From Clostridia bacterium (GTDB lineage: Bacteria; Bacillota; Clostridia; UBA1212; UBA1255): a stretch of DNA of 32,156 nucleotides. Shown piece after piece: positions 2,522 through 8,474 of the stretch. The DNA lies in NCBI GenBank assembly GCA_017620915.1, contig JAFZSK010000069.1, positions 1 through 32,156 on the forward strand. The letters are read 5' to 3'. The notes beneath the pieces were generated by a model. The model saw only the letters and a list, made by a program, of their open reading frames with translations, searched no databases and was not told where the DNA came from. Each line of letters starts with the position of its first letter. Position 1 is the stretch's first letter. A program made the translations under genes and the position numbers.

Positions 2522-2557
2522 AAAAAAACACTTCATCCCCGAACAAGGGACGAAGTG
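2522..2557 (-). terminator. T-box intrinsic terminator of the alaS leader
   Basis: On the minus strand CACTTCGTCCC (2557-2547) pairs with GGGGATGAAGTG (2540-2529) across a short loop, and seven T residues follow (2528-2522). The CGTCCCT segment in the 5' arm is the part that should instead pair with the T-box AGGG when uncharged tRNA-Ala is bound, so terminator and antiterminator exclude each other. Confidence 0.93.
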
Positions 2558-2808
2558 TGATCTGACTTCGCGGTACCACCCTTTTTCCCGGACAATACTT
2601 TCCTGTTCGGGCTCTTTTTATGCTGTTTACGGTGCCTTCCGCCGGGCCATTTCCTGCCCGGAGCTCCCCGGCCGCTTCGCACACTCAGGATCGAGGATTC
2701 GCACCGTCCATCCCCTCTCTGTGAGTTACCTGATGTGGCTACTTATCCGGTTCAACGCCAGATTCTGTTCGATGGCTGCCGGCATATAGCCGATGATCGT
2801 CTGCCATC
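2522..2808 (-). promoter_or_regulatory. T-box riboswitch leader of alaS
   Basis: The leader runs from a start site near 2808 to the terminator. It contains the canonical 14-base T-box AGGGTGGTACCGCG at 2582-2569 and the upstream GGTGCGAATCC element near 2703-2693. T-box leaders read the charging state of a cognate tRNA: uncharged tRNA pairs with a specifier codon in Stem I and with the T-box bulge, stabilising the antiterminator. The downstream gene is alaS, so the expected specifier is a GCN codon; a GCC in GTAGCCAC near 2742 is a candidate, but Stem I was not folded and the specifier is not proven. Confidence 0.93.
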
Positions 2809-2847: not shown

Positions 2848-3678
2848 TTACTTGTTTTCTTTACTTCTGCTTCGGGCGATCACTATCAGCGCCACTGCGA
2901 CCGCTAATGCCGCAGCGGTGACAATTATCATCAGCACCCAGTTGACCTGGCCAAGACCGGTAAGATACCAGTTGCCTGTTTCGGCGTTCTGGAGTTTACT
3001 GAATACCAGCACGATGTCAAATATCAGGGCGACAGTGATGATTGCCACCGCGATCAATTCAAGTACCGGTACTTTGTTTTTAGTTGTCCGTGCGAGCCGC
3101 ACCGGCGTCGCGAACCGGAAGTCCAGCGCAGAGCCCACGAAATAGATCACAATGCACATGACAAGTGTTTCGGGGATCATGTATGTGGCGTTGTACGCCA
3201 GCGAATAAGCGATGGCGCCGCGGGTGGGAATCGACAACCCGGCCCACACGGTAGCGCCGGAGATCACGTGGCAGATGTAGCGAAGCAGGCATACCATTAC
3301 TGCCCCGGCCAGCAGTTCGTCGACTTGATCACGCAAGATTTTATTGAGTTTGCCGCGGAACAGCCCGCCCAGGCCGATCACCGCGAACGCCACGATATAG
3401 TCCAGCAAAATGACGGCCAGCACGGATTGCCAGGTCGAGACCCAACTGAGCGTTTTCAGGCCCAGCAGCTGCTGTATGCCGCCGTATACGGTGGCCGAAA
3501 TGAGCCCATAGCCGAGACCGTGGCGGTACGAAATAAGCATTACCGGGAACATCGACGCAATGGTGACGGAGCCGCCGTACGGCAGATCGATGATCTTAAT
3601 GAGTGAGAGCACAACGCCCATGGCGATCAGCAGCGCGCTTTCCACGAGGCGCTGAGTGGCAGAAATCTTTTCGGTCAT
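2848..3678 (-). CDS. thiT: ThiT-like thiamine transporter (ECF S component) with a C-terminal extension
   Basis: Predicted integral membrane substrate-binding (S) component of an energy-coupling-factor importer for thiamine. The segment LPYGGSVTIASMFPVMLISY (about residues 32-51) followed by HGLGYGLISATVYGGIQQLLG matches the ThiT signature, and several hydrophobic helices follow. A TPP riboswitch directly upstream independently supports a thiamine role. Typical ThiT proteins are about 190 residues; this one is 276. The extra C-terminal part, after about residue 200, contains two further strongly hydrophobic helices and a basic tail (ARSRSKENK). No EcfA or EcfT gene is in the window, so it would use a shared module encoded elsewhere. 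Start ATG 3678 is set by AAAGGAG within the riboswitch expression platform. Confidence 0.88.
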   Translation of the reverse strand: MTEKISATQRLVESALLIAMGVVLSLIKIIDLPYGGSVTIASMFPVMLISYRHGLGYGLISATVYGGIQQLLGLKTLSWVSTWQSVLAVILLDYIVAFAVIGLGGLFRGKLNKILRDQVDELLAGAVMVCLLRYICHVISGATVWAGLSIPTRGAIAYSLAYNATYMIPETLVMCIVIYFVGSALDFRFATPVRLARTTKNKVPVLELIAVAIITVALIFDIVLVFSKLQNAETGNWYLTGLGQVNWVLMIIVTAAALAVAVALIVIARSRSKENK

Positions 3679-3722
3679 AAAAAAACTCCTTTCACAGGTC
3701 GTGCCATGCCGCAGTGAAGGAG
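3679..3722 (-). promoter_or_regulatory. TPP riboswitch expression platform: terminator hairpin containing the thiT ribosome site
   Basis: On the minus strand CTCCTTCAC (3722-3714) can pair with GTGAAAGGAG (3695-3686) with one bulged A, and seven T residues follow (3685-3679) immediately before the thiT ATG. The 3' arm contains the Shine-Dalgarno sequence AAAGGAG. One hairpin could therefore stop transcription and also hide the ribosome site when TPP is bound. Confidence 0.75.
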
Positions 3723-3728
3723 CCGGAA

Positions 3729-3818
3729 CCGCTTCCCTACGGTAGGATTACCTACACAGGTTCGAGGGGACCGGAGCGGCAGGGCCGTCCATCTCAGCAG
3801 TAAGCGCCCCCAGCGGAC
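3729..3818 (-). promoter_or_regulatory. TPP (THI-box) riboswitch aptamer
   Basis: Read on the minus strand, the region has the conserved THI elements in order: GGGGGCGC, CTGAGA (3798-3793), CTCGAACCTG, GGTAATCCTACCGTAGGGAAGC. These form the pyrimidine- and pyrophosphate-sensing arms of the TPP aptamer. TPP binding normally turns the downstream gene off, which fits feedback control of the ThiT-like importer. Confidence 0.95.
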
Positions 3819-3824
3819 AACGCT

Positions 3825-3887: not shown

Positions 3888-3923
3888 TTTTTTGAACATG
3901 GGGTCAGACCACGTGTGCAATAA
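3888..3923 (+). repeat. GGGGTCAGAC dispersed repeat, copy A
   Basis: Contains ACATGGGGTCAGACCACGTG, an imperfect palindrome with the GGGGTCAGAC core found at four other places in the window. It overlaps the translation start of the methyltransferase gene: its ATG at 3898 is the probable start codon and its core encodes MGSDH. Confidence 0.85.
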
Positions 3924-4572
3924 TATTGAATACAGATTCATGCTGCCGGCGAGCGGACGGGAGATAAGCTTGCGGGCTTCCGGTGATATGTTTTCTCCTT
4001 CCGGACCGGACCGCGGCACTTTGGCGATGCTGGAATATTCAGATTTTGCATCGGGTCAAAAAGTGCTGGATCTGGGCTGCGGCACAGGGATAGTAGGGTT
4101 CTGTGCGCTGGAAGCCGGGGCGTCGGTGACGATGTGCGATGTGGCTCCGGAAGCGGTTGCCGCGGCCAACGCCAACCTGAAAGCTAATTTTGATATTGCC
4201 GCCGCCGGCCGTGCGCGAGTGGTGCTCTCGGACGGTTTTGACGCTGTTTCGGACAATGACTTCGACGTGATCTTGTCCAATCCTCCGTACCACACGGATT
4301 TTTCCGTGGCAAAGCGGTTTATTGAAGGCTCGTTTTATCACCTCACGGCCGGCGGACGGCTGCTGATGGTGACCAAAAGGCTAACGTGGTACAAGTATAA
4401 ACTGACATCGATATTCGGCGGCGTGAAGGTGCGCGAAGCCGGAGGTTATTACGTGTTCATCGCCGAAAAGCGGCAAAGCAAGCCGTTTTCTGCTGTTCAA
4501 AAGGTAAAAAAACTACAAAAACGCCAGGAGGAGCGTGCCAATGCTGATCTACGCCGTAAACCGAAAAACTGA
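3898..4572 (+). CDS. Class I SAM-dependent methyltransferase (RsmC/TrmN6-like)
   Basis: Predicted cytoplasmic RNA (or glutamine) N-methyltransferase of about 224 residues. It has FSPSGPDRGTLAML before the Rossmann core, SAM motif I VLDLGCGTGIVG (near residues 58-69) and the N6/N5-methyltransferase catalytic motif NPPYH (near residue 126), as in RsmC-like 16S rRNA guanine methyltransferases. The substrate cannot be fixed from sequence. A ribosome site AGGGAGG at 3881-3887 lies 10 bases before ATG 3898; a TTG at 3892 is possible but too close. The first codons come from repeat copy A. The 3' end overlaps the next gene by 32 bases, suggesting translational coupling, and its tail is Lys/Arg/Gln-rich. 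Confidence 0.85.
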   Translation: MGSDHVCNNIEYRFMLPASGREISLRASGDMFSPSGPDRGTLAMLEYSDFASGQKVLDLGCGTGIVGFCALEAGASVTMCDVAPEAVAAANANLKANFDIAAAGRARVVLSDGFDAVSDNDFDVILSNPPYHTDFSVAKRFIEGSFYHLTAGGRLLMVTKRLTWYKYKLTSIFGGVKVREAGGYYVFIAEKRQSKPFSAVQKVKKLQKRQEERANADLRRKPKN

Positions 4573-5095
4573 CACGGGGTCAGACATGTTTTTAAACACG
4601 GGGTCAGACCTCGCGTTCGTAAAACAGGTGTTCGAGCTGACACTGGCCGGAGGATGGACGCAGGAAGGGCGAGATACTTTTGCACGGCTGATCGAAGCAG
4701 CGGCGGTGTTCCCCATGTTCCGTTATTTCAGGGCGTATGATGAAGTCCTGAAGCGGACGGCGGGCGTGCTGGCAGCGGACAATGAACTGTCTCACATTTC
4801 GCTGCTGTTCGTCCATCCGGATTACATGGGGCAAGGCATAGGCAGCCGCCTGATCCGGCTGGCGGAACGGGCAACGACTCAACGTGGCCTTACGGTCAAC
4901 GCCGAACCGACGGCCGTAACGTTTTACGAAAAAAAAGGCTTCAGAGCCTGCACAGGCGCGTTTGAGACCCGAGACGGCATAACGACCCTCCGGATGTTCA
5001 AGCCGCTTAAAACACTCCGTACGCGTCCGCTGAAAGTCAACAAAAAGGGCAGCCCCGGAGCGGGAACTGCCCTTCATGCTGATGACCGGACTTGA
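4541..5095 (+). CDS. GNAT-family N-acetyltransferase carrying an in-frame repeat insertion
   Basis: Predicted acetyl-CoA-dependent acetyltransferase of 184 residues. The acetyl-CoA loop is GQGIGSRLIRLAE (motif A) after SLLFVHPDYM, and the family's C-terminal FYEKKGFR follows. The substrate is unknown. AGGAGGA at 4526-4532 selects ATG 4541 rather than GTG 4535. Soon after the start, two tandem repeat copies encode TDTGSDMFLNTGSDL, where related proteins would run straight from the first strand into a helix like FVKQVFELT. The domain should end near FKPLKTLR; the remaining codons run antisense through the tRNA-Leu terminator and into the tRNA itself, so the original stop has probably been lost. 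The gene is probably co-transcribed with the methyltransferase. Confidence 0.82.
   Translation: MLIYAVNRKTDTGSDMFLNTGSDLAFVKQVFELTLAGGWTQEGRDTFARLIEAAAVFPMFRYFRAYDEVLKRTAGVLAADNELSHISLLFVHPDYMGQGIGSRLIRLAERATTQRGLTVNAEPTAVTFYEKKGFRACTGAFETRDGITTLRMFKPLKTLRTRPLKVNKKGSPGAGTALHADDRT
4571..4616 (+). repeat. GGGGTCAGAC dispersed repeat, tandem copies B1 and B2
   Basis: Two direct copies, ACACGGGGTCAGAC at 4572-4585 and ACACGGGGTCAGACC at 4596-4610, are separated by ATGTTTTTAA. They start at the stop codon of the methyltransferase and lie inside the GNAT reading frame, each giving the peptide TGSD. Confidence 0.88.
5042..5074 (-). terminator. Intrinsic terminator of tRNA-Leu
   Basis: Just after the tRNA on the minus strand, AAGGGCAG pairs with CTGCCCTT across a GC-rich loop and runs into TTTTTG. 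It lies antisense within the 3' end of the GNAT gene. Confidence 0.88.
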
Positions 5096-5160
5096 ACCGG
5101 TACGGATGTTGGTCCGATGGATTTTAAGTCCATTGCGTCTGCCGATTTCGCCACATCAGC
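5077..5160 (-). tRNA. tRNA-Leu (anticodon UAA)
   Basis: The 84-base minus-strand sequence folds as a type II tRNA. The acceptor arm GCTGATG pairs with CATCAGC plus discriminator A, and the D arm holds TGGCGAAATCGGCAGACGC. The anticodon loop CTTAAAA gives UAA, a variable arm follows, and the T arm contains GGTTCAAGTCC. CCA is not encoded. It reads UUA codons (and UUG by wobble). It has its own promoter and terminator and is antisense to the GNAT gene end. Confidence 0.96.
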
Positions 5161-5170
5161 ATCGGCGCGT

Positions 5171-5200
5171 ATTATAACACCGGCAGCCCTGCGCTGTCAA
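5171..5200 (-). promoter_or_regulatory. Promoter of tRNA-Leu
   Basis: Minus-strand -35 TTGACA (5200-5195) and -10 TATAAT (5176-5171), both consensus, are separated by 18 bases and lie about 11 bases upstream of the tRNA 5' end. Confidence 0.85.
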
Positions 5201-5202
5201 GA

Positions 5203-5235
5203 TTTTAACACACGGGTCTGACCCCGTGTTCAAAA
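5203..5235 (-). repeat. GGGGTCAGAC dispersed repeat, copy C
   Basis: A palindromic copy: ACACGGGTCTGACCCCGTGT on the plus strand, flanked by TTTTAAC and TCAAAAA. It sits between the tRNA-Leu promoter and the pseudouridine synthase start and closely matches copy D. Confidence 0.88.
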
Positions 5236-5243
5236 AAACGGTT

Positions 5244-5942
5244 ATGGAAAAGATCACAAGTGAGAATATGGTATATATTGACGACGCGATCGCGGTGGCC
5301 GTAAAACCGCGCGGGTACGTGAGCGAAGCGCAGGCGCAAAACTCGTTTCCGGACGCGCTTGAGGCTCTGCTTGACCCCGAGAGGAACGGTCACAAACTGT
5401 ACCCGGTACACCGGCTGGACAAGGACACCGCCGGACTCATGGTATACGCGCGCACTCCGGACGCCGCCGCAGGACTCAGCCGCACCATACAAAACGGTCA
5501 ACTCTGCAAAGCCTACGAGGCGCTGATCCACGGTATTCCCGAACCGCCCGAGGGTACTTTAGAAGATTTTCTTTTCAAAGACAGCCGCACCGGCAAAGTG
5601 TACACCGTAAAAAAGGAGCGCAGAGGCGTGCGGAAAGCCGTACTGCGCTATAAATTGATCAAAACGTTTAACGATAAATCCGGAGACGGAGACACAGCAG
5701 GAATCGGTTCCCCGGTCAGCCTGGTGCACATCATCACCGAGACCGGACGCACGCATCAGATCCGGGTCCAGTTCGGGTCGCGGAAACTGCCGCTGTTAGG
5801 CGACCGCCGGTACGGGGCCGGGGACAATTATCCGCCCGTTGCCCTCTGCGCCACCGAACTGTCTTTCCCCCATCCGCTCACCGGGGCGTCAATGTCCTTC
5901 GTTGTCCCCTTCGACTACCCCGCTTTTGACATACTCGCCTGA
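5244..5942 (+). CDS. RluA-family pseudouridine synthase
   Basis: Cytoplasmic enzyme isomerising uridine to pseudouridine in rRNA or tRNA. The catalytic aspartate lies in VHRLDKDTAGLMVYA (near residues 53-67), the RluA signature. Other conserved stretches are YEALIHG, ITETGRTHQIRVQF and LLGDRRYG. At about 232 residues it lacks an N-terminal S4 domain, as short RluA members do. ATG 5244 was chosen because upstream GTG 5226 lies inside repeat copy C; no good ribosome site is visible for either, and ATG 5268 is also possible. The target uridine is unknown. The 3' end overlaps the convergent rhamnosidase by 54 bases. Confidence 0.88.
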   Translation: MEKITSENMVYIDDAIAVAVKPRGYVSEAQAQNSFPDALEALLDPERNGHKLYPVHRLDKDTAGLMVYARTPDAAAGLSRTIQNGQLCKAYEALIHGIPEPPEGTLEDFLFKDSRTGKVYTVKKERRGVRKAVLRYKLIKTFNDKSGDGDTAGIGSPVSLVHIITETGRTHQIRVQFGSRKLPLLGDRRYGAGDNYPPVALCATELSFPHPLTGASMSFVVPFDYPAFDILA

Positions 5943-8474
5943 ACCCACGACTTCTTCCGCGCCGCCGAACACGATCCTGCATTTCATACCGAACGGCACG
6001 CTCACCGAAAGCCGCGTCTGACCGTAAGTTGTCTTCCAGCGCACCGCCAGCCGCCCGTACGGCGTATCCGCGTAGCCCTGCGCCGACAACAGCCCGGCCG
6101 GAAAATACGGTTTTACTGTGTAGACATTGTCATCACCGCCGCCGATCAGGCCGGAACAGCCGCTACCGCCGATACCCGCGCGCGGCGCCTGAATACCCAG
6201 CAGATACGCGTAAAACCAGCGGTCAATACTGGCGTACATCGGATGATCGTGCGAGTTCATTGACGGATCTTTCTTCAGTTCAAAGCGCTCCCAGATAGTG
6301 GTGGCGCCGTTTTCAAGCATGTAGCCATAACCCGGATAATCCTCATCACGCAGCAGCCGGTACGCCAGATCGACGCGGCCGTATTCGGCAAGAATGTCGA
6401 ACAGATAGCGGGTGTTGAGGTTGCCCGTGGTGAAGTGCATATCCGCGGCTTCCAGCGCGTCGACCAGGCGATCAAACGCGGCCTTACGGCACTCTGCGGG
6501 CAATATCCCCAGCCACAGTGAAAACACCTGACAGCCCTGGGAGCCCGTTGCCACCTTCCCCGTCGCGCGGTCCAGCCACTTGTCGCAATAAGCGCGGGCG
6601 ATTGCCCGGGCAGTATTGAGCCATTTGCCCACGTCGCCGGTAAGCCCCAGCGCAGCGGCAAATTCCGCCAGCTTCAGGCAGTTGAAATACGAGTAACCAG
6701 TGGACATCAGAGACCCCGGGGTCACCGCGGAATACGCGTTCTCCGGCGCCAGACAGCTACCCTGCGGACCTGCCCAGTCACCGTAATAACTGTAATTTAC
6801 TATATAATCGTCAGAGTGCGCCAGCAGGCACTCTTCCCAGCGGCGCCAGTTGTCGTAGTGTGCGGCTACGAACGCCGTATCGCCCGAACGGCGGAAGTAT
6901 TCGTACCCCGCCACCAGGAACGACGAGCAGACCGGATCCGCCGGATTGCCGCCCACAATAAACGGCGCGGTGCAGCGTATGCCGCCCTGCGCGTCCTGCA
7001 CGTCGCACAGATCATCCACGACCTTAGGAAAGATACGGTCAATGCTGAAATTATACGGCGTCTCCTCGAACCGCACGGTGGCGTCGTTCATCCAGCCCAT
7101 CCGTTCATCGCGCTGGGGACAATCGGTCAGTATCGAATGAATATTCGCCTTCTCCGTCTGCACGCAGGCCTTATGAATGGCATTCAGTGCCGGACTGCCG
7201 CAGCGGAAATCCCCGGTCTGCGACAGGTCGGTGTAGAAAGCCAGCGCAAAAACTTTATCCGCATCCAGATATTCTCCGCACCCCGAGATCTGGCAATACC
7301 GAAACCCGTGATATGTGAACCGGGGCTCCCACCATTCCGGATCGTTGCCGTCGCCGGCGGCAATATACGTATCCGTCGCTTTCGCCTCACGCAGCGGCGC
7401 CGTGAACAGCGTGAAATCATCGTCCAGCAGCTCCGCAAATTTTAAACACATGGTCTGACCCCGTGTCAAATTTGAAGGCAGCGGGAGGCGGACGACGCCG
7501 GCCAGATTCTGGCCGAAATCCAGTATTACACCGTCGGCAGTAGAGAGTACATCGACCGGACGGTACATCTCGCGGACAACTATAGGCGGAATGGTCATAA
7601 TTTCGGCTTTTTCGCAGGGTTTTGAAGCCTTCTGTACCGGCTTTTCTTCAAAAAGGCTGATACGGGCATCGCAGATCTCGCCGTCGTAGATGCTGGTCTC
7701 GATAGTGTTATTATATGACCAGATCCAGCTGTCATCGGTGTCTATCTGCGTACGACCGGCCTTGCCCTCCAGCACGATGCGAGCGGACAACAGATTCGGC
7801 CCGTCAAATCGCGGCCGCGGAATACCTACACCGAGCAGGTACGTGCTGTCAAAGTTCCGCCAGCCGTCGGCGACCACGAACGCAAGCTCGTTGTCCCCTT
7901 TACGCAAAAGCCGCTCGAAGCCTTCCTGGAATACGAAATCACAACGCTTAGTGTAATCAGTGAACGCTGGATCCAGGCGCGCGTTGTCCACGCGCACGCC
8001 GTTGACGAACATCTCGGAATACCCGATGCCGCAATACAGCGCTAGCGCTTTAGCGGGCAGTTCCTCCAGCGCAAACCGCTTTTTGAATACTACCGGGCGG
8101 CGCTTCTTCGTATCCGGCGCGCAGATCCAGCCGAAATCCGGCTCCGCGGTATAACTGTAAAACCAGTCCTCCGCCTCCGCGATCTCGCCGTACGCGTCCG
8201 TGATCTCTAAAGAAACATAAAGTTCCGTAAACAGCGGCAGCTCCGGGCCGGTGTATGTAACAAAGGGCAGCGCCGACTTAACCGCCACCGGACCCGAATT
8301 CCAGATAAGTCCGTCCAGCGACTGGACGCATACCCGGGCCGAGACCGCCGCATTGTCACCGCGGTCGCTCTCCGCCCTCCAGCCGAACCTCGGCTTTAAC
8401 TTCGACGTGATCCTGTATCGGCCCGCGTCCCGCAACAGCGCGCCATCAAGTGAAATACCTGTGATCTTCAGCAT
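5889..8474 (-). CDS. Glycoside hydrolase family 78 alpha-L-rhamnosidase
   Basis: Predicted 861-residue enzyme releasing terminal alpha-L-rhamnose, probably intracellular because no signal peptide is seen. N-terminal beta-domains carry FGWICAPD and YDGEICDAR; a linker domain has VILDFGQNLAG. The (alpha/alpha)6 catalytic domain begins with TDCPQRDERMGWMNDA near residue 450, whose Glu corresponds to the GH78 general acid, and has GATTIWERFE near residue 729 with the likely base. NSHDHPMYASIDRWFY follows, also typical. A ribosome site GGGAG precedes ATG 8474, and the lipoprotein gene ends 26 bases upstream, indicating an operon. About 11 codons near residues 334-345 (NLTRGQTMCLK) are supplied by repeat copy D. 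Confidence 0.92.
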   Translation of the reverse strand: MLKITGISLDGALLRDAGRYRITSKLKPRFGWRAESDRGDNAAVSARVCVQSLDGLIWNSGPVAVKSALPFVTYTGPELPLFTELYVSLEITDAYGEIAEAEDWFYSYTAEPDFGWICAPDTKKRRPVVFKKRFALEELPAKALALYCGIGYSEMFVNGVRVDNARLDPAFTDYTKRCDFVFQEGFERLLRKGDNELAFVVADGWRNFDSTYLLGVGIPRPRFDGPNLLSARIVLEGKAGRTQIDTDDSWIWSYNNTIETSIYDGEICDARISLFEEKPVQKASKPCEKAEIMTIPPIVVREMYRPVDVLSTADGVILDFGQNLAGVVRLPLPSNLTRGQTMCLKFAELLDDDFTLFTAPLREAKATDTYIAAGDGNDPEWWEPRFTYHGFRYCQISGCGEYLDADKVFALAFYTDLSQTGDFRCGSPALNAIHKACVQTEKANIHSILTDCPQRDERMGWMNDATVRFEETPYNFSIDRIFPKVVDDLCDVQDAQGGIRCTAPFIVGGNPADPVCSSFLVAGYEYFRRSGDTAFVAAHYDNWRRWEECLLAHSDDYIVNYSYYGDWAGPQGSCLAPENAYSAVTPGSLMSTGYSYFNCLKLAEFAAALGLTGDVGKWLNTARAIARAYCDKWLDRATGKVATGSQGCQVFSLWLGILPAECRKAAFDRLVDALEAADMHFTTGNLNTRYLFDILAEYGRVDLAYRLLRDEDYPGYGYMLENGATTIWERFELKKDPSMNSHDHPMYASIDRWFYAYLLGIQAPRAGIGGSGCSGLIGGGDDNVYTVKPYFPAGLLSAQGYADTPYGRLAVRWKTTYGQTRLSVSVPFGMKCRIVFGGAEEVVGSGEYVKSGVVEGDNEGH
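7441..7475 (-). repeat. GGGGTCAGAC dispersed repeat, copy D, inside the rhamnosidase gene
   Basis: Plus-strand ATGGTCTGACCCCGTGT flanked by TTTTAAACAC and CAAATTTG is nearly identical to copy C at 5203-5235. It lies within the GH78 coding sequence without breaking the frame. Confidence 0.88.

Follow-up and report, generated by a model that had tools for sequence, protein, structure and literature searches.

Repeats of the tiny Y1 transposases are mainly regarded as extragenic passengers, and the chemistry of TnpA as known is insertion. Rickettsia palindromic elements are likewise insertions. Genes of the type described below were named TIRYTs, with a shared terminal inverted repeat (TIR) consensus, GGGGWSAS; TIRtrons are described in the same work (Di Nocera, 2013; PMC3733652). 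Most TIRYTs belong to subclass 2.1 of TnpA-REP and have C-terminal HTH domains (PMC6006769). Here, we describe a repeat family with a TIRYT-like core that lies mostly inside genes in one rumen Clostridia genome (G000). The material consisted of metagenome-assembled genomes (MAGs), those of the relatives being incomplete. Genes were called with our own codon-usage caller.

The window, by which we mean the full stretch of 32,156 nt, was searched for exact GGGGTCAGAC. Five cores were obtained and no sixth (Table 1). When up to one mismatch was allowed, there were five matches against 1.29 ± 1.15 expected, and five or more were reached in 0 of 100 shuffles. The exact search and the shuffles confirmed the preliminary description of five GGGGTCAGAC repeats in both orientations, confined to 3.6 kb of the window, and each of the five does touch a coding sequence or its start, as stated there. 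Arms with ACAC/GTGT and A/T-rich ends were found, in imperfect form. In single-stranded DNA folding, copies 1, 2, and 4 were better than shuffles (z about -2.3 to -2.7), and copies 3 and 5 barely so. Copy 1 is absent from the syntenic place in the sister genome G014, and the site of copy 2 is occupied there by unrelated sequence of equal length. The spacer holding copy 4 is ~43 bp longer than in the motif-free congener G010; hence, copy 4 is compatible with insertion. Copy 5 aligned without gaps to five motif-free rhamnosidase orthologues.

Table 1. Repeat copies, open reading frames, and leader elements in the window.
Feature	Position	Strand	Remarks
Repeat copy 1	3888..3922	+	core 3900-3909; ATG at 3898 probably starts the methyltransferase ORF
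Repeat copy 2	4568..4589	+	core 4576-4585; copy 3 is 24 bp away
Repeat copy 3	4588..4617	+	core 4600-4609; encodes TGSD near the GNAT N-terminus; common to G014
Repeat copy 4	5203..5237	-	core 5216-5225; palindrome complete, located 5' of the RluA-type gene; common to G014
Repeat copy 5	7440..7474	-	core 7453-7462; within the rhamnosidase gene; in G014 too, with W position T -> A
Methyltransferase ORF (MTS domain)	3892..4572	+	start overlaps copy 1
GNAT acetyltransferase ORF	4535..5095	+	N-terminus encoded by copies 2 and 3
RluA-family pseudouridine synthase ORF	5226..5942	+	start abutted by copy 4, ORF downstream
Alpha-L-rhamnosidase ORF	5889..8474	-	copy 5 inside
TPP riboswitch	3717-3821	-	ordinary; upstream of the thiamine transporter gene
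Thiamine transporter (Thia_YuaJ) gene	2848-3678	-	
T-box leader	2543-2764	-	Rfam 113 bits

The whole genome (2.57 Mb, 121 contigs) contains 36 GGGGTCAGAC and 192 GGGGACAGAC, with 1 and 1 for the reversed-pattern controls. A large genome-wide family had been predicted, and these counts establish it; the copies are neither few nor due to a local segmental duplication, which is ruled out as the source of the window copies by the copies elsewhere in the genome. Because GGGGACAGAC outnumbers GGGGTCAGAC, the T form of GGGGWCAGAC(C) seen in the window is the minor one. The consensus first described was correct for the GGGGTCAGAC core and incomplete, since position 5 is A rather than T in the predominant form across the genome. 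With W for A or T, the motif string is TTTTGAACACGGGG[A/T]CAGACCCGTGTTCAAAA. GGGG[AT]CAG was present in all copies searched, and A and T interchange between the sister species. A literature search with the literal motif strings gave no evident repeat description among the matches listed.

The stretches around 136 copies, about 60% of all, were used as the sample. These distinct copies and their flanks give an approximate consensus of TTTTRAACA(N)GGGGWCAGACCC(N)GTGTTCAAAA, in which the right arm is less conserved than the left arm and the core. The arms are imperfectly palindromic (TTTTGAACA...TGTTCAAAA around GGGG[A/T]CAGACC). Strict arm pairing was considered and rejected: perfect stems across the core had a mean of about 3.0 vs 2.3 with shuffled arms, an excess so slight that the hairpin is not strongly kept. 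Copies are somewhat clustered rather than evenly spread, with 31 gaps below 3 kb vs 21 expected on the motif-bearing contigs. Twenty pairs lie less than 100 bp apart, about ten (half) of them at exactly 24 bp, the commonest close spacing.

No transposase had been seen in the preliminary description, which holds for the window only: a search of the genome for a Y1_Tnp/RAYT gene returned one, flanked by the motif (locus L001, 315 aa). The protein scores 74.8 bits to NCBIfam REP_Tyr_transpos, slightly below the cut-off of 80. Its ORF (1309-2256) lies between two inverted copies, AGGGACAGACC at 1279(-) just upstream and GGGGACAGACC at 2479(+) ~220 bp downstream. A putative C-terminal HTH_23 domain (residues 276-309) is weak in this protein (E = 0.071) and reaches E = 0.001 in the homologue of the congener G011. 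No solved structure was matched by the sequence of the transposase. The adjacent DNA (L001:2520-2991) is 74-78% identical in five congeners. Repeats of the GGGGACAG type occur near 9 of the 10 Y1 loci of the genus, usually inverted and with suffixes that differ by genome; none was seen at the tenth locus (L031), which adjoins a contig end. The suffix after GGGGACAG varies among the transposases of the genus (L026-L034) as AGACC, AGACTT, GTCC, and GTACC/GCACC, which suggests that repeat and transposase may co-diverge.

The core GGGGWCAG fits the GGGGWSAS consensus (PMC3733652), and the identity of GGGG[A/T]CAGACC as a TIR/REP-type element of a TIRYT (RAYT-like Y1) transposase in this rumen Clostridia genus is well supported. 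The proposal of a REP-like repeat mobilised in trans gains support from the genome-wide family and the motif-flanked Y1 gene of REP-associated type. Shared with TIRYT TIRs are the GGGGWSAS core, the inverted placement on either side of a long Y1 transposase, and the occurrence of dispersed copies, dimers, and clusters; a C-terminal HTH-like region of the transposase may be a further resemblance. Unlike them, the copies in these rumen Clostridia are mostly intragenic, are length-neutral in most conserved genes, and have a core that is kept between species. The family also resembles the REP/BIME/REPIN elements of RAYTs, being made of small imperfect palindromes dispersed in trans, with tandem and inverted arrays in the congeners G015 and G011. 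It differs from them in that the column frequencies of the 136 aligned copies contain no GTAG/GTGG tag 5' of the hairpin, and in that it is extragenic in congeners and intragenic here.

The relatives, all rumen Clostridia MAGs, differ widely in GGGGWCAGACC. There are 201 in our genome, 193 in G014 (RUG12823), 413 in G015 (RUG14148), 63 in G011 (Tb.RUG.494), 4 in G013 (RGIG10101), 1 in G012 (RGIG8345), and 0 in G010 (UBA1255); in the wider order, only two further genomes have more than 4 (36 and 11). With the same gene caller, 80 of 128 copies lie inside genes in our genome, compared with 1 of 45 in G015 and 6 of 40 in G011. The overwriting of genes discussed below is therefore not general to the family, which counts against the model proposed for it: G015 and G011, the nearest relatives that have the core, hold it almost wholly outside genes. 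In both, this core has other arms (GTGCAACGGGGGACAGACCCCGGTTGCAC and similar) and forms inverted pairs as well as tandem arrays of 45/46 bp. Loci L245-L259 of G015 consist of GTGCAACGGGGGACAGACCCCGGTTTCGACCCTGTCCCCGC... units of composite REP type, arrayed in tandem at 45/46 bp, in a genome with the very high number of 413 cores in 2.1 Mb.

Of the sampled copies, 86/136 lie in predicted CDS, with GGGGWCAGAC on the coding strand in 70 of the 86. The description of the repeats as concentrated in genes is thus right for the majority of copies and wrong as a preference: ~90% of the DNA is coding, the intergenic share of the sampled copies is 28%, and intergenic DNA is over-used. Intergenic copies in L001-L074 lie between divergent genes in 14 cases, tandem genes in 17, and convergent genes in 1, unlike usual REPs. 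GC skew of the short loci was uninformative as to replication-strand bias. Chance matches or codon bias are an extremely improbable source of the family. In codon-resampled genes, ~5 exact 10-mers and 1.2 11-mers are expected in all coding DNA, against at least 86 copies in the sample, and the motif-poor congeners have 0 to 4 11-mers. This excess excludes chance for the family as a whole, even if single cases, such as GVRH of ArgB (L009), read as natural protein.

Intragenic copies were aligned to motif-free congener orthologues, following the gap test applied to the uptake sequences of Haemophilus (PMC1626085); the comparison covers conserved genes. At 18 of 23 sites, the motif was gapless in at least one outgroup (flank identity ≥50%). 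By alignment, 31 of 43 were gapless at the motif and 12 had a gap there. In RbgA, GTGACGGGGGACAGACCCGGC stands against GTGACGGGAGACAGGCCCGGA in the motif-free relative; both encode VTGDRPG, and all differences are synonymous. In beta-fructosidase, TTGAACATGGGGTCAGACGTG vs ATAAATATGGGCTCGGACGTT corresponds to LNMGSDV vs INMGSDV. Gapless sites with the same or nearly the same residues as in motif-free relatives were also found in HisC, PriA, NifS-like, AsnB-like, and other proteins. The left arm was imposed relative to the outgroups (4.7 vs 3.1 of 9 matches, p = 0.0004).

A short palindrome translated within unrelated genes is what this family has in common with intragenic REPs and with Rickettsia palindromic elements, which a mobile repeat preferring coding DNA would resemble according to the preliminary description. 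Taken as insertion into genes, that comparison mostly fails, since 18 of the 23 testable conserved contexts are replacements of unchanged length. Ordinary insertion of such an element into coding DNA, tolerated in frame, is accordingly improbable as an account of the whole family. It is refuted for the length-neutral class, to which most conserved sites belong: in RbgA, TrmK, PriA, and beta-fructosidase the residues of the motif are already in, or close to those of, motif-free relatives, and insertion cannot produce copies that encode residues the relatives already have. For a minority of copies it survives. Indels occur at 9/26 and 13/28 copies, compared with 8/104 and 11/112 control windows, an enrichment from which it follows that insertion happens too. 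Extra segments of 5 to 17 residues at L020, L036, and L062 look inserted, G014 has a tandem 33-bp duplication, the longer spacer at copy 4 fits as well, and indels also accompany a minority of copies that lie in loops, linkers, and termini. The length-neutral majority and the enriched indels thus define two classes, one length-neutral and one insertional.

The core is conserved between species. Our genome and G014 share 29 of 35 aligned intragenic copies. In the shared copies, a set chosen by core similarity, 92/94 core third codon positions are identical, compared with 266/375 and 246/370 in the flanks, and W changes freely. Over all 34 safely aligned sites, the values are 100/110 for the core and 598/870 for the flanks (p = 1.7e-7). 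With 91-98% identity at core third positions and 69% in the flanks, the core is kept at the DNA level in genes. Such conservation with one free position, and the excess of divergent (14) over convergent (1) gene pairs around intergenic copies, would fit a model in which point mutation creates the sites and selection keeps them for a host function, for example the binding of a DNA-binding protein such as a domesticated transposase. We consider this unlikely, as most copies lie mid-gene, follow no positional logic, and occur in housekeeping and metabolic genes that are unrelated, and copy number runs from 0 to 413 among congeners.

The main rival explanation, possible but doubtful, is a drive like that of DNA uptake sequences. 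The transposon repeat may have seeded the motif, which would bias DNA uptake or recombination; near-matches in genes would be driven to perfection by substitution and then kept. The mostly gapless alignments are the signature reported for the Haemophilus USS (Redfield, 2006; PMC1626085), and near-matches perfected synonymously are seen in RbgA, HisC, and beta-fructosidase. A core conserved amid less conserved surroundings is known for the Neisseria DUS (PMC2397512), and orientation bias, here 70/86 in genes, is known for uptake sequences (PMC2346458). In common with USS and DUS, the family has a ~10-bp core, a weaker A/T-rich flank, hundreds of copies, and perhaps an in-place origin in genes. 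It is unlike them in that the core is a transposase repeat, the copies are clustered, and the phylum is different. The density is about 80-90 copies per Mb, and known DUS densities are higher. To our knowledge, no uptake sequence is known in Bacillota, so that such a drive would be unprecedented there. ComEC is present, but ComEC and one T2SSE protein are found in each of the seven congeners, those with many motif copies as well as those with few or none. Clustering, with half of the close pairs exactly 24 bp apart, and the fact that 12 of the 15 gapped alignments have a gap at the motif also speak against this drive, which leaves the coincidence with the TIRYT repeat core unexplained.

Our preferred explanation for the presence of the motif in genes is a transposase-linked process of copying or overwriting, with a probability of roughly 45%. 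For the entry into genes without a change in length, and for the upkeep of the motif, we infer the following steps. The transposase would make or expose single-stranded copies of the element. Such copies may insert in loops, linkers, gene ends, and intergenic DNA, giving tandem copies often 24 bp apart. Alternatively, they may anneal to partly matching sequence at gaps, be copied in, and overwrite host sequence where the protein tolerates the change. The same process, or selection, would then preserve the core. Under this model, the common core, the imposition of the arms, the coexistence of both classes, and the tandem arrangement of copies would be explained. Against it, there is no sequence evidence of DNA overwriting by this transposase, and we know of no such activity in a transposase of this kind. 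In addition, no Y1_Tnp gene was found in the assemblies of G014 (70% complete) and G015 (88% complete), despite their 193 and 413 copies; the locus of our transposase is not in the G014 assembly, and only a neighbouring gene was found in G015.

Ordinary repeat insertion does not explain an intragenic motif that mostly takes the place of existing sequence and is nearly unchanged across two species. In G015 and G011 the core is extragenic, yet it is intragenic, length-neutral, and conserved at the DNA level in a sister pair. It is conceivable, if rather doubtful, that the transposase-repeat core has become self-perpetuating in one rumen Clostridia lineage by biased recombination or uptake, overwriting and then preserving a 10-17 bp motif in housekeeping genes; it would then be a third independent uptake-sequence-like system and the first in Bacillota. 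The family would represent either a new way for a transposase repeat to rewrite genes without disruption, or a bridge from transposase repeats to DNA uptake sequences. Motif-free, extragenic, and intragenic states occur within this one genus and can be compared directly.
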